From a virus, in the IMG/VR virus record IMGVR_UViG_3300042463_000555, positions 1-30,899 of that record: a stretch of 30,899 nt of DNA. One strand, 5' to 3'. Under the pieces are notes generated by a model. It was not told where the DNA came from. It made no database searches and saw only the letters and a program-made list of their open reading frames with translations. Position 1 is the first letter of the stretch; the number at the start of each line of letters is the position of its first letter. The translations under genes and the position numbers were made by a program. This document shows positions 5,026 to 25,599 of this stretch, one piece after another.

Positions 5026-5574
5026 ATGTCAACGCCCACCAAGGAAAAGCGCCAAACCCCAGATATTGTACCCACTGTGGTCGATCTGGCGGAGGCTTTG
5101 GGCACTACTCGAAAGACATTGAATGTTTGGCGGAAGCTCGACGGGGCTCCGAGGCCGCGCCCGAATGGTGGTCACTCGGTGACGGAGTGGCGCAACTTCA
5201 TTTCATCGCGTGGGCTCGGATCGCAGACACTTGGATCCCGCGAAGAGCAGTTGATGGATAGCGAGGCGCTGCGGGCTCGGAAGCTACTGGCCGAGGTCGA
5301 GGACCGCGAGCTCAAGGTGCTGGTTCGCAAGGGGCAGTTCGTCCCGATCGACGCGGTGCGTGAGCGGTGGTTCTATCACATCGGACAGGCAAACGCCCTG
5401 CTTCGGAACAAGCTCGAAAACGAATTGCCGCCGCTACTGGTCGGCAGAGATGCGGTCGACATCCGCAAAGAAATGGCCAGGGTGGTCGATGAGTACATCG
5501 CGATCATGAACTCTGGCGATCAAAAGAAGATCCCAAAACTTGAAACCAGAGGACGAAAGAAATCCGACGACTGA
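5026..5574 (+). CDS. Small terminase subunit-like DNA-packaging protein (Nu1-like)
   Basis: This 182-residue protein starts at ATG 5026. Residues about 15-50 form a winged-helix HTH (VVDLAEALGTTRKTLNVWRK, then HSVTEWRNFISSRG) of the MerR/Nu1 kind that recognises phage DNA for packaging. Residues 75-130 form helices including EALRARKLLAEVEDRELKV and AVRERWFYHIGQANALLRN, which resemble the oligomerisation region of Nu1-like small terminases. The basic C-terminus (RGRKKSDD) could contact the large subunit. It overlaps the large terminase gene by 35 nt, the classic partner arrangement. Length matches lambda Nu1 (181 aa). Confidence 0.8.
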   Translation: MSTPTKEKRQTPDIVPTVVDLAEALGTTRKTLNVWRKLDGAPRPRPNGGHSVTEWRNFISSRGLGSQTLGSREEQLMDSEALRARKLLAEVEDRELKVLVRKGQFVPIDAVRERWFYHIGQANALLRNKLENELPPLLVGRDAVDIRKEMARVVDEYIAIMNSGDQKKIPKLETRGRKKSDD

Positions 5575-7426
5575 CCTGCTCGATGAGATCCTGCGCTCTG
5601 GGCATGTGATCACCGATCGCCGGCCGCCGTGGCAGTGGTGCGAGCAGCATGTCGAGTCGATCCCATACTCGCCGGTGCCGGGTGGATTCCAGTCGGGCAA
5701 CTCTCCATGGATCCGCGAACCATTGGAGGCGCTGGCAGATCCCTCGGTTTCGCTCGTCTCCATCATTGCCGCGATTCAGGCGGGCAAAACCATGACCGCC
5801 GAGCTTGGATCCTGCTGGATCGCCGCGAACGCGCCCGGACCGATGCTCTGGCTCGACCAGACAGACTCCGACGCAAAAGATCAGATGGAAAACCGTCTGC
5901 AGGTGCTCTGGAAGCAATGCGCGCCGATTCGGGAGATTTTGCCGCGCCAGCAAGGGACCGAAAGGCACAAGCTCAAGCGCAACTCGGTCGCATTTCTCAA
6001 CGGCATGACCGGCTGGGTGCTCGGTGCTCACTCCAAGACCAACCTTCAAAGGAGATCGATCCGCTGGTTGATCGGCGATGAGACCTGGCGCTGGCCATCC
6101 GGTCACATGGCCGAGGCCGAGGCGCGGGTCACCGCCTTCGGGTGGCTGGGAAAAAGGTTCTTCGTGTCGCAGGCCGGCGAGGTGGACGACGACACCGATC
6201 GGAAATTTCGATCGACCGACCAGCGTGAATGGTGCTGGCGATGCCCGAGCTGCAAGACGACGCAGCCATGGAAATGGGAAAACATCGAATGGTCGAAGGA
6301 TTGCCGCCTCGAAGATGGCGCGTGGGATTACGAGCGGGTCCGCGAGACCACCGAAATGTTCTGCGAGTGTGGCACCCGCTTTCCCGATACCGACCGATCA
6401 CGGCGTGAGCTCAACAACCCTCTGAACGGCGCGCGTTATGTCTCCCAGAACCCCGGAGCGGCGAAGTCGAATGTCGGCTTCCATTGGAATGGCCTCTGTG
6501 CGGGATCATGGGGCAACCTTGCCGAGATTTACCTTCGGGCAAAAGCGTCGGCACGCACTGGCGACATGGAGCAACTCAAAATTTTCTGGCAGAAGCGCCT
6601 TGCTCTTCCGTTCACCGAATACACCGAGGATTTCTCGATCAAGATCACCGACAGCACCTACGCGCGCGGCGATTTAGCCTGGGAAAAGGAAGGCGCGATC
6701 ATCGGTGGCAAAATCCGGGTGCCGGATGAGGATGACGATCCGCCGGTTCGGCTGCGCGTGATGACGGTGGATGTTCAAATGGATCACTTCTGGTGGCTGA
6801 TCACGCAGTGGAGTCCTGATGGATCCAGCCGCCGGATCGACTGGGGAACAGCCCACACCTGGGAAGAGTTGCTCGAACAGCAGGAAAAGTACCGCGTTTC
6901 ATCCTCGCTCGTCGGCGTCGATGCCGGATTCAACTCCTACGAGGTCTACCAACGCTGCGCCGAGCATGGCTGGGTCGCCTTGATGGGTGACAGGAAGGCC
7001 ACATGGACTCACCGACTAAAGCAGCGCCTCGGCGTCGGCGTCCGGGTCAAGTCGCTTGATCGGTTCTACTCACCGAAGCGCTCGATCAACTGCTCGGCAG
7101 GCAAAGTCGCCCAGATGTTCTACTGGTCGAACCTCAACATCAAAGACGCCCTCTCGCGGATCCGCCGCAATCAAGATCCAAGCCGAGGCCCGACATGGGA
7201 GGTGCCGGTCGAGGCTCTCGCCGAGGTCGACAACGACGAAAAGAAGATCGCGTACCTGAGCCAGATGGAATCCGAGATGCGGATCAAGGACGGCGACAAG
7301 TGGCAATGGTCGCGGATCCAGAAACGACCGAACCACTTACTCGACTGTGAGGCGATGGCGACGGTGTTTGCCTTCATGCTCAAAATCCTTGGCCGCGAGA
7401 CCGAGCAGGAAGCCGCCGCTGATTGA
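5540..7426 (+). CDS. terL: Large terminase subunit, lambda gpA family
   Basis: This 628-residue ATPase/nuclease packages DNA into the prohead and cuts genome ends. The Walker A-like AIQAGKT is at residues 78-84 and Walker B WLIGDE at 176-181. A Cys pair set (C232, C235, C238, then C275, C277) looks like the zinc-binding insert of the GpA family. The nuclease half shows Asp-centred strands VMTVDVQ (D411), VGVDAGF (D461) and LLDCEAMA (D602), likely metal ligands. Length is close to lambda gpA (641 aa). The start is TTG 5540, since an in-frame TGA at 5507 precludes earlier starts and the first ATG lies past the Walker A. GpA-family phages usually have cohesive ends. Confidence 0.95.
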   Translation: MKPEDERNPTTDLLDEILRSGHVITDRRPPWQWCEQHVESIPYSPVPGGFQSGNSPWIREPLEALADPSVSLVSIIAAIQAGKTMTAELGSCWIAANAPGPMLWLDQTDSDAKDQMENRLQVLWKQCAPIREILPRQQGTERHKLKRNSVAFLNGMTGWVLGAHSKTNLQRRSIRWLIGDETWRWPSGHMAEAEARVTAFGWLGKRFFVSQAGEVDDDTDRKFRSTDQREWCWRCPSCKTTQPWKWENIEWSKDCRLEDGAWDYERVRETTEMFCECGTRFPDTDRSRRELNNPLNGARYVSQNPGAAKSNVGFHWNGLCAGSWGNLAEIYLRAKASARTGDMEQLKIFWQKRLALPFTEYTEDFSIKITDSTYARGDLAWEKEGAIIGGKIRVPDEDDDPPVRLRVMTVDVQMDHFWWLITQWSPDGSSRRIDWGTAHTWEELLEQQEKYRVSSSLVGVDAGFNSYEVYQRCAEHGWVALMGDRKATWTHRLKQRLGVGVRVKSLDRFYSPKRSINCSAGKVAQMFYWSNLNIKDALSRIRRNQDPSRGPTWEVPVEALAEVDNDEKKIAYLSQMESEMRIKDGDKWQWSRIQKRPNHLLDCEAMATVFAFMLKILGRETEQEAAAD

Positions 7427-7428
7427 CA
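7423..7428 (+). promoter_or_regulatory. TTGAC element, 20 nt before ATG 7443
   Basis: TTGACAAC overlaps the TGA stop of the large terminase gene. The gene it precedes has no Shine-Dalgarno in the usual window. Confidence 0.4.
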
Positions 7429-7442
7429 ACTTGCCGCATTTC

Positions 7443-7679
7443 ATGAAGGAGCTGATCGGTTGGACTGAAGAAAAGTTATGGAACAAGCTTCAGGGCCACA
7501 TCCTCGAAAGCGAGAAGGCCATGGCTAGTTTTAGCGAAAGCGGGACATCCGTGACTTACAGAAAGCCTTCGGAAATTAAAGCCGACATAGAGTGGTGCCA
7601 ATCAGCATTACAAAAGCTGAACCCTTTTAAATACGGCAAAAGTCGCCGCACCTGTCAGTCATCCATAGGTAATTTCTAA
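7443..7679 (+). CDS. gpW-like head-tail joining protein
   Basis: This 78-residue protein runs from ATG 7443, 16 nt after the terminase stop, to the stop just before the portal start. The central segment SFSESGTSVTYRKPSEIKAD, followed by a helix ending in QSALQKLNP, matches the beta-hairpin plus helix plan of lambda gpW, which binds inside the portal ring and lets the tail attach. Position between large terminase and portal is the same as lambda A-W-B. Base composition is somewhat richer in A and T than its neighbours. Confidence 0.75.
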   Translation: MKELIGWTEEKLWNKLQGHILESEKAMASFSESGTSVTYRKPSEIKADIEWCQSALQKLNPFKYGKSRRTCQSSIGNF

Positions 7680-7680
7680 C

Positions 7681-9105
7681 ATGAACCTGCTGCAAAAAAT
7701 CACCAAGTCCGCCGCTTCAGCCTTCGGATGGTCACCCTACGAGAGCGTAAACCCATCGCCGGTTCGCCAACGCCTGCCCGCCGCAGCTCCGCAAGACCAC
7801 CGCAAGGAGGCAACGCCACTGGTACGCAACGAACTCATCAAAGGCAGCCGGTATCTGATGAAAAACAGCGGGTTTGCCCGCGAAATGGTCTTCGACATGG
7901 CCGTCTACTCGGTCGGCGATGGTCTCAAGATTCAGCCAAAGACCGAAGACCGCGAGTGGATTGCCGGCGCGCTCGACTACTGGGAGGAATGGTCGAATCA
8001 GTGCGAGGTGACGGGACGATTCTCCCTCTCCGAGTGCGAAATGCTTATCTGCCGCGCGATCGACGAAGACGGTGATATTTTCGTCCATCTCACCCGCGTT
8101 GAAGGCCGCCCGGTGATCCAACTCATCGAAAGCCACCGCGTGAGCGGCGGGAACAACGACGGCACGGTCGATGGCATCCGTTTTGACGGCTATGGCCGAC
8201 CAGTTTCGTACAATGTGCGCCAGGATGACGGCACTTTCATCGAGCTTCCGGCCTACTCGGTGCTCCATATCTTTGACCCAGAGCGCGCATCATCGGCTCG
8301 CGGCGTGCCATCACTGGCGCATTCGATAAATCACATCCGCGATGAGATGGAATTGCTCGCGCTCGAAAAGCACGCGCTCAAGGACCACGCCGACAAATCG
8401 TTCGCGATCACCACGCAGAATGGCGAGATCGATAGCAACGACGGCTTTGGCGGACTGGATATTGACTCAGGCAAGGCCGAGGACAATCCACACAGCGACC
8501 CGACTGCATTGCAAAAGATCGTCGGCGGCAAGTGGGTCGCACTCAAGCCCGGAGAGGAACTCAAACCCTTCGAGTCCAACCGCCCATCGCCCACCTTTAC
8601 CGGGTTTCTCGATCACCTTCGCCGCGATTCGGCGTTGGGTGTGGTGCCATACGAGTTCACCGCAGATTCAAGCAAGATCGGTGGCGCCGGAGTCCGTATG
8701 GTGGTTGCCAAGGCCGATCGCCGATTCTCCCACAGGCAAAACATCCTCATCCGCCGCTTTCTCACGCCCGTCTGGAAGTTCGTCATCGGCGACGCCATCA
8801 CTCGTGGCGAGATCCCGCTGATTGCAGGATGGTGGAAGATTTCCGTCGTCACCCCGCGACGCGTCACCGTCGATGCTGGTCGGGAGTCGCTTCAAAACCG
8901 CGAGGATGTGAAGGCCGGTCTCAAGACCCTCTCCGATCACTTTGCCGAGCTGGGCATGGACTTTGAGGAGGAGGCCGAACGCCGCGCCCGCGACATCGCA
9001 CACCTGCAAGACCTCGCGGAGAAATACAACATCCCCTTGCAGATGCTGTTCGCATCGGGAGTTGCCACCCCGCCGGTCGAAGCGCCGACCGGGCCTACGA
9101 AGTGA
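7681..9105 (+). CDS. Portal protein, lambda gpB family
   Basis: This 474-residue protein starts at ATG 7681. The portal forms the dodecameric ring at the capsid vertex through which DNA passes. Family-typical features are the N-terminal RNELIKGSRYLMKNSGFAREM segment (about 48-70), the sequence DEDGDIFVHLTR (about 128-140), and the later region with HLRRDSALGVVPYEFTADSSKIGG (about 312-335) and RRFSHRQNILIRRF. Length is slightly below lambda gpB (533 aa). The order terminase, gpW, portal, protease confirms the call. Confidence 0.93.
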   Translation: MNLLQKITKSAASAFGWSPYESVNPSPVRQRLPAAAPQDHRKEATPLVRNELIKGSRYLMKNSGFAREMVFDMAVYSVGDGLKIQPKTEDREWIAGALDYWEEWSNQCEVTGRFSLSECEMLICRAIDEDGDIFVHLTRVEGRPVIQLIESHRVSGGNNDGTVDGIRFDGYGRPVSYNVRQDDGTFIELPAYSVLHIFDPERASSARGVPSLAHSINHIRDEMELLALEKHALKDHADKSFAITTQNGEIDSNDGFGGLDIDSGKAEDNPHSDPTALQKIVGGKWVALKPGEELKPFESNRPSPTFTGFLDHLRRDSALGVVPYEFTADSSKIGGAGVRMVVAKADRRFSHRQNILIRRFLTPVWKFVIGDAITRGEIPLIAGWWKISVVTPRRVTVDAGRESLQNREDVKAGLKTLSDHFAELGMDFEEEAERRARDIAHLQDLAEKYNIPLQMLFASGVATPPVEAPTGPTK

Positions 9106-9112
9106 TGGGGAA

Positions 9113-9118
9113 TTGACA
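9113..9118 (+). promoter_or_regulatory. TTGAC element, 19 nt before GTG 9132
   Basis: TTGACACC lies in the 26-nt gap after the portal gene. A short inverted repeat, CACGC with GCGTG, abuts the start codon. No purine-rich ribosome binding site is present. Confidence 0.4.
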
Positions 9119-9131
9119 CCCCACGCATCGC

Positions 9132-10427
9132 GTGAACGCACGCGATCTCATTTTGACACAGGAGCCGTGGGCCATCGCCCCGGAGGCAATGGACGGTATC
9201 ATCGGTTTGGCCATGGATATGGCCGCCGGCAAACTCTTCACCCTGCCGCAGAGCGAGGCACCGCAGTCGATCATGAGCGTTGCCGATGGCGTCGCCACAA
9301 TCTCGATCACTGGTCCGCTCCTTCCGACCACCGACGAGTTCGATCGCGTGATGCTCGGGGCGACGAGTCTCGATGAAGTTCGCTCCACCGTTGAAAGCGC
9401 CGCCGCTGATCCAGCGGTCACATCGATCGTTCTCAACATCGACTCTCCTGGCGGAACCGTTCGCGGCACCCCCGAGGCCGCCGATGCAATCTACGAAGCC
9501 AGCAAGGTCAAGCCGGTGCGTGCGCACACCTCCGGAACGATGGCATCCGCTGCCTACTGGCTCGGATCACAAGCGACCAGCATCTCGATGACGCGCTCGG
9601 CATCGGTTGGATCCATCGGCGTCATGGTCCCGCACATCGACCAAAGCAAACGCGCCGAGATGCTTGGCGTGAAGGTCGAGCTTTTCACCACCGGCAAGTT
9701 CAAAGCCGCAGGTTTCCCTGGCACCTCACTCACCGAGTCGCAACGCGAGCTGATCCAAGAGCGCATCGACCAAGTCTTTGCTGAGTTCAAATCCGCCGTC
9801 ACACGCCAAGGTCGGAAGATCCCAGCCGAGGCGATGCAAGGGCAGACATTCTACGGCCCGCAGGCCGAGTCGCTGGGCCTCGCCACCGTGGTGCGCAGTG
9901 CTTCGCAAGCAGGCAAAGCCGGATCCTCTCCGCTTCGCGCAGTTGACACTGCGGAAGATGGCATGAGCGAACAAGTCGCCAGCACCCCATCCGAAGAAGT
10001 CGTCGCATCGGTCGAGACCGTTGTTGCGGAAATCGCAAACGAAGCCGCCCCATCCGCACCGGAAGGTGAGCAAGAGGCAGCTCCTGAATCCGCACCTGAA
10101 GGCGAAACCGAAAGCGTGCCTGCTGAGGAGCCCAAGGAAGAGTCCGCCACCGAGATCATCGGCGACCTCAAGGCCACGCTGGCAACGCTGCAAGGCGAGA
10201 TCGCCGCACTGAAGGCCAATCAACTTTCCCTCGATGAAGCAGTGGCCGCCAAGGCCGCCGCCATCGCAAGCCGTAGCTCCAGCGCACCCGTGAATGTGTC
10301 GCCGGACAACGCGGAAGCCCAATCGCTCGACAGCGTGCTCGCCGAAATCAAGGCGACCACAAGCCCGACCGAAAAGTACCGCCTCGGCAAGCTCGCCGAA
10401 AAACTCCGGGCCCAAGGCTCAAACTAA
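9132..10427 (+). CDS. S49-family prohead protease with C-terminal scaffold domain (lambda gpC/Nu3-like)
   Basis: Residues 45-265 form an SppA/S49 serine peptidase: NIDSPGGTV at 102-110 is the oxyanion region, S139 in TMASAAYW is the nucleophile, and K189 or K191 in TTGKFKAAG is the general base. The enzyme matures proheads by cleaving the scaffold. Residues 280-345 are Ala/Glu/Pro-rich and 345-431 helical, the composition of a scaffold. This is the lambda C-Nu3 plan, in which the scaffold is also made from an internal start. Such a start exists at M278 (ATG 9963), preceded 20 nt upstream by TTGACAC. The main start is GTG 9132. Confidence 0.92.
   Translation: MNARDLILTQEPWAIAPEAMDGIIGLAMDMAAGKLFTLPQSEAPQSIMSVADGVATISITGPLLPTTDEFDRVMLGATSLDEVRSTVESAAADPAVTSIVLNIDSPGGTVRGTPEAADAIYEASKVKPVRAHTSGTMASAAYWLGSQATSISMTRSASVGSIGVMVPHIDQSKRAEMLGVKVELFTTGKFKAAGFPGTSLTESQRELIQERIDQVFAEFKSAVTRQGRKIPAEAMQGQTFYGPQAESLGLATVVRSASQAGKAGSSPLRAVDTAEDGMSEQVASTPSEEVVASVETVVAEIANEAAPSAPEGEQEAAPESAPEGETESVPAEEPKEESATEIIGDLKATLATLQGEIAALKANQLSLDEAVAAKAAAIASRSSSAPVNVSPDNAEAQSLDSVLAEIKATTSPTEKYRLGKLAEKLRAQGSN
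9943..9948 (+). promoter_or_regulatory. TTGAC element, 20 nt before internal ATG 9963
   Basis: TTGACACT occurs inside the protease gene at the same distance from the predicted scaffold start as the intergenic copies keep from their genes. A weak GGAAGA lies 8 nt before the ATG. Confidence 0.4.
9963..10427 (+). CDS. Candidate internally initiated scaffold protein (Nu3-like)
   Basis: In-frame internal start M278 of the protease gene would give a 154-residue protein comprising just the acidic Ala/Glu/Pro-rich region and the helical C-terminus (DLKATLATLQGEIAALKAN and following). In lambda and its relatives the separate scaffold is made this way, in excess over the protease fusion. Support here is the correct domain boundary, the TTGAC element 20 nt upstream and the absence of any separate scaffold gene. 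Actual use of this start is inferred. Confidence 0.5.
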   Translation: MSEQVASTPSEEVVASVETVVAEIANEAAPSAPEGEQEAAPESAPEGETESVPAEEPKEESATEIIGDLKATLATLQGEIAALKANQLSLDEAVAAKAAAIASRSSSAPVNVSPDNAEAQSLDSVLAEIKATTSPTEKYRLGKLAEKLRAQGSN

Positions 10428-19514: not shown

Positions 19515-21800
19515 ATGCAAGTCCTCGCGTTTGTAGATCTCACCAACCGGAAGCTCAACAGCAACCTCGGGGGCAGTACGCTTACCCTGCCGGAGCTTGT
19601 CCAAGGCGATGAAGTCCGCATCGGGATGCGCTTTTCCAAGCAGATCGAAGGCACAGCAACCGAGGTCTTACGCAATATCAACTCCATTCGCGCCAGCATC
19701 GGCTTTGTCGATGCCCGCCCGACCGCTGGTACCTTTCAACTTTATGTCGATGGCGATACCGCTGGCTCCCCGCTTTCGTTCGACGCGACCTCCGCCCAAG
19801 TCAAATCCGCGCTTGAAGAAGTCTACTCCTCAACAGCAACGGTCACATTCAAAGACGGCTCATGGCTGGTCGATGTAGCGGATGTCACCGAGGCCCAGTA
19901 CCCGATCACCGGCACCTCGGTGAGCCTTGAGCCAACCGCCCATGTGCGGGTGCGTTCCTTCCTCGTCGGCAGCAAGACGCGCCACGAGATCCGCCTGATC
20001 CGCTCACCGCTCGCCTCGACATCGACATTTTCCAACAGCATCCCGGCAGCACCTAGCATCACGCGGGTGCAGGCAGGAGGTAGGAATGGAACTACTCTAT
20101 GGAATGAGATACAGGCCCTGAAGATTACCCCTGAATTTCGAGGTGTCTATCAGCTCCGCCGTGGCTTCAAAAAGTCAAGCGAGCTATCAATCGAAGACGG
20201 CGCGGAGGAAATCCAAGAAGCTATTCAACAACTCGCCGATGAGGATGGTGAATTTACGGTCACCAACCCGAACAATAACACCGCCCACATCACTTTTGGC
20301 GGTGAATCGATGGAAGGCAAGGGACATGATTTGATTGAGGCGGTGGTCTTCTCAGCACCACCCGGCGATCCGACCTTTGTTCTGAATCTCAATACCGCCG
20401 AACTGGCCGACGCGCTGCGTGCTGTCGATACCATCACCACGGCGGTTCTGGAGGTCGAGATGACCATCGAGGACGAGAACGATCCCGACACCCTCTACAC
20501 CATCACGCCGATCCGCGTGCCGGTACGGATCATCCGCGAGCTCAACTGGGAAGGTCTGGAAGCCGCCGCCAACATCGACTGGCTGCGCCCGCCACACGGT
20601 CGCACCTACATTCCGTTCACCGAGGATCAGATCATCACCGGCAGCCAGCACTATGTCGCCCCGATCGGCGACGGCACCAACACCGAGTACACGCTCACCC
20701 ACAACCTCGGCACCCGCGACCTGCATGTGACGCTGCGCAAGAACGATGGCGAGTCAGCTATCGTTGATCGGCAGTTTTCCGTTGATGGCGAAGACCTCTA
20801 TGTTTCCTACGCTGTGACCCTCGACAGCGAGGATGACCTCACCATCAAGTTCAAGACGCCACCAACAGCTAACCAGTATGTGGCGACTATCACCACTGCC
20901 GGCCCGATCTCGGCCTTCCAGGCGCACACGCACACCATCGAGCAGATCGAAGGATTGAACCTCCTGCTCGATGACATCGGCAGCCGTGTGGAGACTTTGG
21001 AAACAATCGTGATCGCATCCGGCCCCGGCCAGAACGATCAAAAGACCAGCGGCACCAAGATGCAGATTGAGGAAATCGACATCACGATTCCTGCGGGATC
21101 CTCCCTGCCTAATGGCCGCCTGCCGCTACTGGGTGCCGTTCACGATGCGACGGTCTCGCCAGCCGCGCCGCCGTTTGCCGTGGAAACCTTCGCCGGGCAA
21201 GTAAAGCAACTCAGCACGCCATGGCTCATCCCCTCGGCCCGCAACCGCAAGGCATGGCCGGTGGCATCTAATGGCTACATCGCCAGCAATGGCTCGGTGA
21301 TGTACGAGGTACGCAAGAACGGCAACAGCTACTTCCCAGTCGAGTACGAGCACGACATCTTCCTGCTCTGGATCGCGGCCGAAATGCTCACCGCAAAACG
21401 CAGCCTCAGCTTGAGCGTGAAGCCATCACTGCAACTGCTCGGCAACACCCGCGCCCAGTACATGCTGGAAGTCGCCTTCGGCACATTGCAATCATCGCAG
21501 GGCAGCAACTACGGCCCGAACTTTGCCAGCCTTCAGTGGGCCACGCCGATCATTTCACAGCGCCTCATCCTCTCCAGCACGATCGTCGAGCACAGCTTCG
21601 GGCTTTCGGTATCCAGCGATGCCAGCTCAGTCCTCAGTGCCACTAGCACCCTCTACGGCCGCTCGCAGAACGCGACGCCGCCAAGCAACTCCGCCTTCGC
21701 TATCCGCGCCCGCCTCCTCAACTTCGACACCGAAGATCGCGAAGGCACACGCGGCGCGATCTCGCTCAAAATGGAAGCCGCAGAACTCGAAATCGCTTAA
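19515..21800 (+). CDS. Large tail fibre/baseplate protein, 761 aa
   Basis: Residues 1-65 form a module (VDLTNRKLNSNLGGSTLTLPEL, then MRFSKQIEG) that recurs at the C-terminus of the next protein. Two copies of a surface-protein repeat follow: TFQLYVDGDTAGSPLSFDATS with VKSALEEVYSSTATVTF at about 75-115, and YQLRRGFKKSSELSIED with IQEAIQQLADEDGEFTV at about 210-255. Near residues 470-500, AHTHTIEQIEGLNLLLDDIG resembles the HxH metal-binding and coiled-coil neck of trimeric fibres such as T4 gp12. The last 230 residues are a beta-rich tip. It probably forms a side or central fibre. Confidence 0.75.
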   Translation: MQVLAFVDLTNRKLNSNLGGSTLTLPELVQGDEVRIGMRFSKQIEGTATEVLRNINSIRASIGFVDARPTAGTFQLYVDGDTAGSPLSFDATSAQVKSALEEVYSSTATVTFKDGSWLVDVADVTEAQYPITGTSVSLEPTAHVRVRSFLVGSKTRHEIRLIRSPLASTSTFSNSIPAAPSITRVQAGGRNGTTLWNEIQALKITPEFRGVYQLRRGFKKSSELSIEDGAEEIQEAIQQLADEDGEFTVTNPNNNTAHITFGGESMEGKGHDLIEAVVFSAPPGDPTFVLNLNTAELADALRAVDTITTAVLEVEMTIEDENDPDTLYTITPIRVPVRIIRELNWEGLEAAANIDWLRPPHGRTYIPFTEDQIITGSQHYVAPIGDGTNTEYTLTHNLGTRDLHVTLRKNDGESAIVDRQFSVDGEDLYVSYAVTLDSEDDLTIKFKTPPTANQYVATITTAGPISAFQAHTHTIEQIEGLNLLLDDIGSRVETLETIVIASGPGQNDQKTSGTKMQIEEIDITIPAGSSLPNGRLPLLGAVHDATVSPAAPPFAVETFAGQVKQLSTPWLIPSARNRKAWPVASNGYIASNGSVMYEVRKNGNSYFPVEYEHDIFLLWIAAEMLTAKRSLSLSVKPSLQLLGNTRAQYMLEVAFGTLQSSQGSNYGPNFASLQWATPIISQRLILSSTIVEHSFGLSVSSDASSVLSATSTLYGRSQNATPPSNSAFAIRARLLNFDTEDREGTRGAISLKMEAAELEIA

Positions 21801-21803
21801 AAC

Positions 21804-24446
21804 ATGCCAAGTGACCTTATCACCGCCAAATTGAAGACTGGGATCACCGATGGGATCTCAATTTACAAAGACCAAACCGCCGAGATCAACTTGGCAAATT
21901 CTGTGGATCTCAAAAGGATCACAGGAGAGTCGCTGACCTATCCATACACTGGAAATCCAATCTCACAAGATGGCGGTGTATTGGCAGGCAAGAGTGTTTC
22001 TAAAATTTCATCAGGGGAGAATCACACCATCGTATTAAATTCGGATGGTTCGCTAGCGGCCTTTGGTCGCAATACATATGGCCAGCTAGGTAACAACAGT
22101 CAAAACAACTCAAACACCCCTGTTGAGGTCATTACGGGTGGCGCTTTAAGCCTAGAGAATATCACCAGAATCAAATGCGGGTACGACGCACTGTATGCTA
22201 CAAGCTATGCTTTAAGTGCAGATGGTGATTTTTTTGGCTGGGGGTTCTTGTCTAATACTAATAGCACGGTCGCTTCACCGGTTTATCTAACTGCTGGCGT
22301 TCTTGATTTCGCTGTTACGGGAACTGATTATTGGACTCATTACAGAGTAGTTAGAAAATCCGATGGTCTTTATTATAACAGACGAGTTACCTCGAATATC
22401 ACAGAATACTCACTTTTCCAATCTAACCAGGTCGCCGCGTTGTCCGGCAAAACGATCACCCAACTGGAAGGATCTGCCACTGCTGTTTATGCGTTATGCT
22501 CAGACGGAACAATCTTTGTGATTACTGCCGTAGGCGGTACTTTTTCAAGCGTCACTCTGAACGGCGCGCTGACAGGTAAGACCGTGAGCCGCCTTGTCGG
22601 GGGTATCGATCGCATCTTTGCCATCTGCACGGATGGCACCATCGCCGGACTTGGAGCTAATACCTATGGCAAGCTCGGCAATGGCAATGCAATCGGCCAA
22701 ACGACATGGGCAGCGGTCAGCATGACGGGAGCCTTGGCCGGAAAGACGATCACGGATGTATCAGTGGGCATGGAGCACACCTTGTTCTTGTGCTCTGATG
22801 GCACAGTCGCAGCAGTCGGGCGCAATGCCAACGGCCAACTTGGAAACGGCACTACGCTAAACTCAACCACCGCAGTAAAGGTGTTTGCTGGCGGTCACCT
22901 CAATGGCAAAACACCGATCGCTGTCGAGGCAGGCGGCTACCACTCGTCAGTCATTACCAGTGATGGCAACCTTTTCACATGGGGATCGGACTCGTTCGGG
23001 CAACTCGGCAACGGTTCGCCGCTCGCCAACTCGACGATGCCTGTTCCCGTCCTCAAAGACTCATTCACCAGATACAACAACCACATCCGATTCACAAGCG
23101 TCTCGATGCCCGATGGTTTATCCTTCGACGGCAACCTAGTCGAAACCGCGAACATCATCGGCGCACCAACAGAAACCGGAACGCAAAATGCGCTGATCAA
23201 AATCGAGCTTTCCGATTTCACTCTTTACAACCCAATTCCCGCATCTGGGAATTTGTACCAAGTCGAAGGCACCACTTATCTCACGGTTCCATTTATCGTT
23301 AATGAAGCCCCCACCTCGCTTGATCCAGTCTTTACCTCGATTATCGCCAATTCCGACATAACGATCGGCGCGTTTGAAAATCGGACTATTTACTTGATGG
23401 CTCGGCAGAATTTGAACTGGGTCCAATGGCATGTCGAAAGCCCACCTCCGGGCATGGACTTCGTGGAAGGCAACCGAATCGCCGGCACGCCGAACTTGTA
23501 TGGCGAATACGAGGTGACCATCAAGCTCTCCTACCGCACCGATTGGAGCTCGCCACTCATCGACGAACAAAAGACCATCACCATCACCGTCGAGAAAGGC
23601 CGTTCAGAGATCGACTTAACCGGGCTGGATGCGCCATGGAATGGCCAGGCATATGTCCTCTCCACTGGCATGCAGGTCGGTACCGCCACCAACCTCCAGA
23701 TCCGCGCCACCAATGATCCTGAGTCATTCACGGCGACTGGTCTCCCCGCAGGTCTCACAATCAACAACAGCGGCCTCATCTCCGGTACACCAACAGCTGC
23801 GGGCATCTACCTATTGACTCTCACCGCCACCAATAATGTCGGCACAGGCACATCCAAGACCCTGCGCGTGAATGTGGCCGCCGCCTCCACCGCGCCAACC
23901 CCACCACCGGTATTCTTAGAAAATGGAGGCGTCGATGTCTTCATGGATCTCCAGACCCGTGAATTGAGCCTCACCCCGCCGAAAGCCGAAGCAACCATCG
24001 CATCCGGCGCGACCGTGGTGAACTCGACCAAGGACAAGCCCCTTCTCATCAAGAGCGGCGAAATCCTCTGGCTCAACCTGCGCTTTACAAAAGGCACCAA
24101 GTCCGTCGATCCAGAGCCCACCGCCATGCGTTTCGGAGTCGCCTCCAAGATCGGTGGTCCTCTGCTTATGGAAGGCGACGCCTTCACCAAGGTCGGCACC
24201 GGATCCAGTGCTTACTACAAGATGCGTGTCGTCGGGGTCGCCGCCGAGTTTGGCGCACTGATCGACGACTACTACGACGAAGATGCCGTCGAGCAAATGG
24301 ACGCAGAAGGCAAGGTCGAAGCCAGCAACGAGACCGACATCAAGGGCCTCTGCGAACTCAAGGTCACCACCGGCACAGGCGAGAGCATTTCAGACATCCG
24401 TAGCGACACCATGGAAGTGGTGATCAAGAAATCCCTGCTCGGTTAA
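21804..24446 (+). CDS. Tail protein with seven RCC1-like repeats and putative Ig domains, 880 aa
   Basis: Residues about 58-416 hold seven repeats of roughly 50 residues, best seen in VGMEHTLFLCSDGTVAAVGR followed by NANGQLGNG. The pattern of GxxH, SDGxVxxxGxNxxGQLGNG matches RCC1, and seven copies would close one seven-bladed propeller; repeats 2-4 are degenerate. Three putative-Ig (He_PIG-like) segments follow, clearest at about 645-695 (LPAGLTINNSGLISGTP). The C-terminal 170 residues (FMDLQTRELSLTPPK, then LRFTKGTKS) resemble the N-terminus of the preceding fibre. It is likely a receptor- or host-surface-contacting tail component. The first 700 nt are richer in A and T, suggesting acquisition. 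Confidence 0.8.
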   Translation: MPSDLITAKLKTGITDGISIYKDQTAEINLANSVDLKRITGESLTYPYTGNPISQDGGVLAGKSVSKISSGENHTIVLNSDGSLAAFGRNTYGQLGNNSQNNSNTPVEVITGGALSLENITRIKCGYDALYATSYALSADGDFFGWGFLSNTNSTVASPVYLTAGVLDFAVTGTDYWTHYRVVRKSDGLYYNRRVTSNITEYSLFQSNQVAALSGKTITQLEGSATAVYALCSDGTIFVITAVGGTFSSVTLNGALTGKTVSRLVGGIDRIFAICTDGTIAGLGANTYGKLGNGNAIGQTTWAAVSMTGALAGKTITDVSVGMEHTLFLCSDGTVAAVGRNANGQLGNGTTLNSTTAVKVFAGGHLNGKTPIAVEAGGYHSSVITSDGNLFTWGSDSFGQLGNGSPLANSTMPVPVLKDSFTRYNNHIRFTSVSMPDGLSFDGNLVETANIIGAPTETGTQNALIKIELSDFTLYNPIPASGNLYQVEGTTYLTVPFIVNEAPTSLDPVFTSIIANSDITIGAFENRTIYLMARQNLNWVQWHVESPPPGMDFVEGNRIAGTPNLYGEYEVTIKLSYRTDWSSPLIDEQKTITITVEKGRSEIDLTGLDAPWNGQAYVLSTGMQVGTATNLQIRATNDPESFTATGLPAGLTINNSGLISGTPTAAGIYLLTLTATNNVGTGTSKTLRVNVAAASTAPTPPPVFLENGGVDVFMDLQTRELSLTPPKAEATIASGATVVNSTKDKPLLIKSGEILWLNLRFTKGTKSVDPEPTAMRFGVASKIGGPLLMEGDAFTKVGTGSSAYYKMRVVGVAAEFGALIDDYYDEDAVEQMDAEGKVEASNETDIKGLCELKVTTGTGESISDIRSDTMEVVIKKSLLG

Positions 24447-24452
24447 GAGCCG

Positions 24453-24458
24453 TTGACA
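24453..24458 (+). promoter_or_regulatory. TTGAC element, 21 nt before ATG 24474
   Basis: TTGACACCC lies 7 nt after the TAA of the RCC1-like gene. Its TTG is in frame with the next gene but has no ribosome binding site. Confidence 0.4.
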
Positions 24459-24473
24459 CCCGCCACATCGAAG

Positions 24474-25196
24474 ATGCAGCTCACCCAGTACATCGGCGAC
24501 AGCACGAGCCACGAGATACCGCTCACATGGGCTGGCGATGACTTCACGCCCGGCGAGGCGTGGTCGCTGATCTTCACGGCCAAGCGCAGCGCGCAGGATT
24601 CAGACGACGCGGCTGTCTTCCAGAAAGTCACAGGTGCTGGCATCTCAGTGACCGGCAACACCGCCGAGGTCGAGATCGTGCCGGCCGACACACTGGCGCT
24701 GCCTTCAGCCACCTACATCTGGGACATCCAAGCACAAAGCCTCAGCACCGGCGAGGTTCGCACCGTCGCGCTGGGCGGGATCAAGCTCGTGCGTGATGTC
24801 ACGCGCAAGACGACCAGCAGTGTCGAGATCCACACCATTGAACCGGGCGTGCCGTTCACTGGTCCACAGGGTCCACAGGGGCCACAGGGGCTCAAAGGCG
24901 ATACCGGAAGCGTCGGGCAGCAGGGACCAACAGGCCCAGCCGGTAATGACGCTTTGTGGAACTACACCGGCGCTTACAGCGGCGGCGCATCCTACGCCGT
25001 GGGCGATGTCGTCACCTACAACGGCGAGCTTTTCTACCGGAAGAACTCCAACGGCGGCAATGTAGGCGACACGCCTTTTGCTGGCAGCACATTCTGGGAT
25101 CTTCTCGCCGCGAAAGGGGAGCAAGGCCCAGCCGGGACGCCAGCACCCACCTACACCTTCTACATCGAGGGGGGCGACCTCTTCATGAGCTATTGA
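24474..25196 (+). CDS. Collagen-like tail fibre protein, 240 aa
   Basis: ATG 24474 is chosen over the in-frame TTG 24453. Residues 1-115 form a beta-rich N-terminal domain of the phage baseplate/fibre attachment type (ITLTWAGDDF-like strands, EIVPADTLALPSATYIWDIQ). Gly-X-Y triplets start at residue 130 (GPQGPQGPQGLKGDTG and so on, about 9 triplets, DNA 24861-24944). Residues 160-210 carry a chitin-binding-like segment (ALWNYTGAYSGGASYAVGDVV, YNGELFYRK), and a second short collagen stretch (KGEQGPAGTPAP) precedes the end. It probably trimerises as a fibre, with the aromatic module contacting host surface glycans. Confidence 0.75.
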   Translation: MQLTQYIGDSTSHEIPLTWAGDDFTPGEAWSLIFTAKRSAQDSDDAAVFQKVTGAGISVTGNTAEVEIVPADTLALPSATYIWDIQAQSLSTGEVRTVALGGIKLVRDVTRKTTSSVEIHTIEPGVPFTGPQGPQGPQGLKGDTGSVGQQGPTGPAGNDALWNYTGAYSGGASYAVGDVVTYNGELFYRKNSNGGNVGDTPFAGSTFWDLLAAKGEQGPAGTPAPTYTFYIEGGDLFMSY

Positions 25197-25215: not shown

Positions 25216-25599
25216 ATGCCTACACTCAATCTCGGAAAAGTAACTGGTGCAACAGGCCCAGCAGGACCAACCGGAAGCACCGGCCCGACCGGCCCAGAGC
25301 CCTCGCTGACGATCGCCGACAACGCAGCGACATCGATCACCCTAGCCGATACCGACAACAACCGCGTTGTCCGCTGCACAGCATCATCCGCCGTGACGAT
25401 CACCGTCCCCTCGACGCTCGCCGCTGGGTTCTCCTGCATGATCATTCAAGCAGGCACAGGCCGCGTGACCTTCGTCGCTGGCTCCGGCGCAACGATCAAC
25501 TCCTTCGGCAACCTGCTCGCCACCGCAGGCCAGCACGCACCGGCCTCGCTCATGCGCGTCGCAAGCGGAGTCTACAACTTGAGCGGCAACCTCGTATGA
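25216..25599 (+). CDS. Short collagen-like fibre-tip protein, 127 aa
   Basis: Residues 9-27 are Gly-X-Y triplets rich in Thr and Pro (GATGPAGPTGSTGPTGP). Residues 30-127 are a beta-rich domain (IADNAATSITLADTDNNRVV, then ITVPSTLAAGFSCMIIQAGTG) that looks like the small capping domain found at the ends of phage fibres and head spikes. It is coupled by an ATGA overlap to the next gene. Short length suggests a trimeric accessory tip. Confidence 0.75.
   Translation: MPTLNLGKVTGATGPAGPTGSTGPTGPEPSLTIADNAATSITLADTDNNRVVRCTASSAVTITVPSTLAAGFSCMIIQAGTGRVTFVAGSGATINSFGNLLATAGQHAPASLMRVASGVYNLSGNLV

Follow-up and report, generated by a model that had tools for sequence, protein, structure and literature searches.

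The virus contig analyzed here (30.9 kb, referred to throughout as the window) encodes, in an open reading frame with an ATG start, a tail-region protein of 880 aa, P0001, whose middle is predicted to fold as a seven-bladed propeller of the RCC1 type. Related phages carry proteins in the same gene slot that lack the propeller, and the amino acid changes between alleles of P0001 cluster on one face of its first four blades. We consider it rather probable that P0001 is a tail adhesin, in which a host-derived and exchangeable RCC1 propeller would contact the cell surface through the AB/CD face of blades 1-4.

Gene setting and predicted fold of P0001

In the window, the terminase gene is followed by those for portal, protease, and capsid, then by the tape measure, the P0001 slot, and the fibers (Table 1). 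The stretch that follows the tape measure and precedes the fibers is the usual location of tail-tip and fiber genes, and the tail-gene placement proposed in a sequence-only reading of this DNA is borne out, with the tape-measure gene on one side of P0001 and fiber genes on the other. Relatives of the collagen-like protein that lies downstream occupy the same position and differ in length, between 241 and 838 aa.

Table 1. Positions of P0001, its parts, and neighboring genes in the window
Feature	Positions	Strand	Basis or remark
Terminase	5026-7426		Gene order
Portal gene	starts 7681		Gene order
Head protease	starts 9132		Gene order
Major head protein	starts 10467		Gene order
Tape measure	starts 15072		Gene order
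761-aa tail-region protein (w19515)	19515-21800	+	Directly upstream of P0001; kept in relatives, slot marker
P0001, tail-region protein with propeller	21804-24446	+	ORF, Pfam and PHROG matches
N-terminal stretch, residues 1-57	21804-21974	+	91-98% identity between alleles
Seven-bladed RCC1-type propeller, residues 58-417	21975-23054	+	Pfam, AF2, structure match
Blade 1 CD loop, residues 89-102	22068-22109	+	Variable
Blade 2 AB loop, residues 126-132	22179-22199	+	Variable
Blade 2 CD loop and start of strand D, residues 149-161	22248-22286	+	Variable
Blade 3 AB loop, residues 173-179	22320-22340	+	Variable
Blade 3 CD loop region, residues 194-208	22383-22427	+	Variable, allele indels
Blade 4 CD loop, residues 242-246	22527-22541	+	Variable
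Canonical blades 5-7, residues 261-417	22584-23054	+	0-2 aa differences in three alleles
Probable Ig-like region, residues 418-620	23055-23663	+	Variable patch near 520-570
Putative Ig domain He_PIG, residues 624-691	23673-23876	+	Pfam 7e-12
C-terminal domain, residues 701-880	23904-24443	+	Conserved, dN/dS 0.03-0.04
Collagen-like fiber protein	24453-25196	+	Downstream neighbor of P0001; Pfam and PHROG; weak CBM_5_12 match
Short fiber-like protein	starts 25216		Between collagen-like and phrog_5939 genes
Tail protein phrog_5939 (w25596), 493 aa	25596-27077	+	PHROG, RcGTA Rcc01080 match; strongly diversified middle

The RCC1 repeats of P0001 are real, with profile matches far above chance and above the curated cut-offs for PF25390 (3.3e-46, 158.7 bits, cut-off 150), PF13540 (1.6e-26, 91.8 bits, cut-off 22), and PF00415 (7.6e-26, 90.9 bits, cut-off 21.7, over four stretches). 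A six-frame search with PF00415 gave four matches in the window, all within the P0001 ORF and none outside it, and none in the 14 control genomes. P0001 also matches the family profile phrog_4219 (1.8e-26), in part, with the best stretch at residues 246-431. The Pfam RCC1 model recognizes blades 1, 5, 6, and 7 only, which confirms the earlier observation that repeats 2-4 are degenerate.

An AlphaFold2 (AF2) model of residues 1-428, for which 52 sequences drawn from the window and viral contigs were aligned, has a mean pLDDT of 79 and a pTM of 0.80, with low confidence over residues 1-56 and values mostly above 90 in blades 5-7. It contains seven blades of four strands each at residues 65-415, the fourth strand of blade 3 being a mere short bridge at 203-204. 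The best match of the model among solved structures is Arabidopsis UVR8 (TM by target 0.80, about 388 columns, full length), with further matches to RPGR, HERC, and RCC1, while the nearest solved chains by sequence are UVR8, HERC1/2, RPGR, and RCC1. The proposal of one complete seven-bladed propeller at about residues 58-416 thus holds as a prediction, the closure of the predicted ring being read from the full-length UVR8 match.

The first 25 or so residues of P0001 resemble the start of a propeller-less slot protein found in viral contig L056. Behind the propeller, the putative Ig domains of the sequence-only reading stand in part: the He_PIG domain is certain, and extra Ig domains are probable within residues 430-620, which are beta-rich in a low-confidence model. 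Because the model of residues 418-880 is of low confidence (pLDDT 51, pTM 0.34), no fold is claimed for them, and a search for their solved-structure relatives found none beyond one weak match. Homology of the C-terminal domain with the N-terminus of w19515 was considered and rejected (profile-comparison probability 0.5%).

Exchange of the propeller and its possible origin

We surveyed the slot through homologues of the 761-aa upstream protein, taken from viral contigs and from one genome contig, the single match in a scan of the genome collection. Two viral contigs, L007 and L008, hold alleles of the propeller protein that are 93% and 89% identical to P0001. In L056, where the upstream protein is 70% identical to w19515, the slot holds a protein of 598 aa without the propeller, the last ~290 residues of which are 50% identical to residues 596-879 of P0001; no RCC1 repeats were found in this record. 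In eleven contigs (L010-L015, L017-L020, and L040), the slot protein has 249 or 262 aa, being truncated at the contig end in L010 and L014; it matches P0001 solely in the He_PIG and C-terminal part (22-31% identity), and other genes come after it. Contigs found via the gene at 25216 have yet other genes in the slot, and the 516-aa protein that one of them, L155, encodes there has a match to P0001 in the Ig part. The C-terminal domain of P0001 is therefore common to propeller-less slot proteins of related phages, and since these share the slot and a related C-terminus, the propeller in the middle of P0001 is exchangeable, being one among several alternatives within a family that has its C-terminal end in common.

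In L051 (13149-15433), and also in L040 and L047, the propeller-less relatives carry a pair of paralogs in the slot, of 140 and ~640 aa, and the motif GMIWPLA.EYAKRGWAVRR.GW occurs close to the start of both. In L166 (8645-10336), a viral contig of 106 kb, the short fiber domain of the 25216 gene ends a different protein at 71% identity, suggesting a fiber module that may be mobile across phages of different size.

The composition of P0001 changes along the protein. The AT-rich first part noted earlier is confirmed, with a GC of 0.456 and a GC3 of 0.424 at residues 58-260, versus 0.580 and 0.650 in blades 5-7 and 0.578 and 0.733 in the C-terminal domain. The host is probably a member of the Verrucomicrobia, as suggested by one binned contig, L040, which has an upstream protein 61% identical to that of the window and is placed in a metagenome-assembled genome (MAG) titled Verrucomicrobia. 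Cellular relatives of the propeller were sought in 289 genomes, all from the phylum of this MAG, and were found in 49 of them. The best of these Verrucomicrobiota relatives reach 40-56% identity, either over blade 1 or over blades 5-7, and none of the 289 genomes gave comparable identity over blades 2-4; the best viral match among those listed, in L057, reaches 35%. The cellular relatives, together with the phage relatives that lack the propeller, support the earlier suggestion of an acquired domain. Acquisition from a verrucomicrobial surface protein is a lead, drawn from sequence comparison within the Verrucomicrobiota alone, and transfer would then have run from cell to phage. The L057 match lies in a 1600-aa RCC1 protein (5490-10292) whose start resembles a signal peptide and which has RCC1 repeats at each end; its gene, set amid head genes, has the look of additional cargo coding for a secreted surface protein.

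Distribution of changes between alleles and its possible causes

We compared the alleles of the window, L007, and L008, with the loop classes mapped on the AF2 model of the propeller; with three alleles only, the events are few and neighboring sites are not independent. The topology of the fold puts the AB loops on one propeller face together with the CD loops. In blades 1-4, the exposed AB and CD loops are variable across the three alleles at 39 of 54 positions (CD 26/34, AB 13/20), in contrast to 13 of 57 in the BC and DA loops (BC 4/14; DA 9/43, with the entry segment counted); strand positions are variable at 20 of 92. The bias toward one face appears in every allele pair (p 8e-6 to 2e-5, with sites treated as independent, though they are not), and in the window-L007 pair 21/54 AB and CD positions differ versus 3/57 in BC and DA (p 1.6e-5). 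Blades 5-7 show no differences between the window and L007 and two with L008, none of them in their AB and CD loops (0/52), and all other propeller changes fall in blades 1-4. The diversification anticipated by the sequence-only reading is accordingly concentrated in the degenerate blades.

The remainder of the protein follows a different course. The C-terminal domain is 99% identical among the three alleles, and around residues 520-570 there is a second patch where variation is weaker. Between the window and L007, dN/dS as estimated on short segments is ~0.6-1.2 for each of blades 1-4, falls to 0 in blades 5-7, and is 0.03 in the C-terminal domain. At the DNA level, the changes are short blocks and indels with identical stretches between them. 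It is conceivable, although we would sooner doubt it, that the RCC1 propeller serves as an antibody-like tail scaffold, where the loop face of blades 1-4 is hypervariable and the other half frozen, giving a changeable patch on a fixed frame.

If P0001 is an adhesin of the tail tip or fiber region, the common framework of a one-slot gene family would consist of the C-terminal domain, the Ig-like domains, and the short N-terminus, and the RCC1 propeller would be placed in the middle as an exchangeable module, probably from RCC1 proteins of a verrucomicrobial host lineage. The AB/CD-loop face of blades 1-4 would then meet the cell surface and change fast from one relative to the next, with blades 5-7 and the opposite face kept constant for fold or packing.

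The chief rival to this explanation, which we regard as unlikely, is that the propeller serves the fiber as a structural or decorative spacer with unconstrained loops, the receptor being bound instead by w25596 or the collagen-like protein. Neutral drift of exposed loops could yield a dN/dS near 1 in blades 1-4, and w25596 has properties of its own that would suit a binder. It matches the RcGTA head spike fiber Rcc01080 (E 1.5e-14), a polysaccharide-binding fiber that binds capsule, with better binding to capsulated cells (PMC10218006). While the first ~160 residues of w25596 are 80-95% identical to relatives and its end is conserved, residues ~160-470 are mostly 10-40% identical, in the same relatives whose other genes are at least 90% identical, which makes it more diversified than P0001. 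Thus w25596 may be the main receptor binder, or both proteins may act as binders in succession. Drift of a spacer, however, leaves the distribution of changes to be explained: because the exposed AB and CD loops of blades 5-7 are unchanged, and the BC and DA loops of the variable blades change far less, exposure alone does not account for the pattern.

Recombination within an existing pool of propeller alleles, with no selection for a binding face, is a further possible source of the variation. In blades 2-3 of L008, dS is ~0.76 versus ~0.1-0.4 around them, and fourfold sites differ at 9/27 versus 13/97 (p 0.02); this raised synonymous divergence points to recombination, and the whole-domain exchange in L056 fits the same process. 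Recombination alone does not put amino acid changes on one face, however, and between the window and L007 fourfold sites differ at only 1/39 over residues 111-215, yet 15-19% of the residues differ. As a full account it is improbable, while as a contributor it is compatible with the adhesin explanation. The short hypervariable blocks with identical DNA between them also recall a diversity-generating retroelement, but neither a reverse transcriptase nor a second copy of the variable region or template repeat was found in the 30.9 kb record, which may be a fragment; moreover, the changes include indels and are not restricted to adenine (A in 47 of the 73 window-L007 changes). This candidate was rejected, and we give it hardly any weight.

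We think it equally improbable, and very much so, that the propeller is a DNA-binding domain by which the packaged genome is ordered, in line with a proposal for RCC1 proteins of jumbo phages (PMC7247149), or a nucleotide-exchange factor like eukaryotic RCC1, whose Ran exchange or nucleosome binding would not be expected in a phage. The PHROG annotation "regulator of chromosome condensation" speaks for such a role along with that proposal, but the name reflects fold class only, the gene lies in the tail-fiber region, its propeller is joined to slot and Ig-like domains that are also found in the absence of a propeller, and the face-restricted variation would be left unexplained.

RCC1 propellers in other phages and known systems

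The sequence-only reading had taken RCC1 propellers to be uncommon in tail tips, a view that is not supported: at least 542 confirmed stretches of RCC1 relatives occur in viral contigs, often near tail-fiber genes. Nine of ten long genes adjoining RCC1 clusters match tail or virion-structure PHROGs, a count that is not a rate, the ten having been selected for length. RCC1 genes lie beside fiber genes in the cyanophages S-SRM01 and BUCT-ZZ01 and in Clostridioides phage LIBA6276, and similar folds in BFVD include the tail fiber of Pseudomonas phage Littlefix and a T7-fiber-like protein of PollyC. The literature search found no paper joining RCC1, phage, receptor-binding, and propeller, nor, in the literature searched, a study of the proteins of these five phages as receptor binders. 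Phage genes named "regulator of chromosome condensation" are common and one published idea for them is genome ordering; the P0001 locus offers sequence evidence for surface contact, and the present analysis names the exact candidate contact loops. If the adhesin explanation is true, a large class of misnamed phage proteins could be reinterpreted, and P0001 would represent a natural propeller with separable constant and variable halves.

Proteins of phrog_4219, phrog_16766, and phrog_7220 (Septuagintavirus W70, GAP32, 121Q, phAPEC6, and Brevibacillus Jenst) share the RCC1-type propeller with P0001. Mass spectrometry found three phrog_4219 RCC1 proteins in W70 virions (PMC11370258) and showed the GAP32 RCC1 protein to be structural (PMC5259590). 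Many proteins of these families are stand-alone or tandem, of ~380 aa, and come from large phages, whereas P0001 is an Ig-containing slot protein with the propeller as its middle domain, on a contig of compact head-tail gene order. S-SRM01, BUCT-ZZ01, LIBA6276, Littlefix, and PollyC resemble P0001 in having an RCC1-type or similar propeller in or beside a tail fiber, although the RCC1 proteins of the first three are just 25-33% identical to it. Beta-propellers of the tail or baseplate with proposed host-surface contact are also found in the five-bladed phi11 Gp45, a receptor binder, and the seven-bladed phiKZ gp131C (PDB 4GBF) (PMC4901313). Both are absent from the RCC1-profile matches in the PDB and are thus not RCC1 by this sequence test. 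UVR8, RCC1, and the HERC RLDs share both predicted fold and repeat sequence with P0001, but are eukaryotic regulators with other partners. BLIP-II, a bacterial RCC1-like propeller matched by the profile, is like P0001 in this respect but is a secreted inhibitor and not a virion protein, and membership of P0001 with it is not claimed; BLIP-II grips its protein target through one face.
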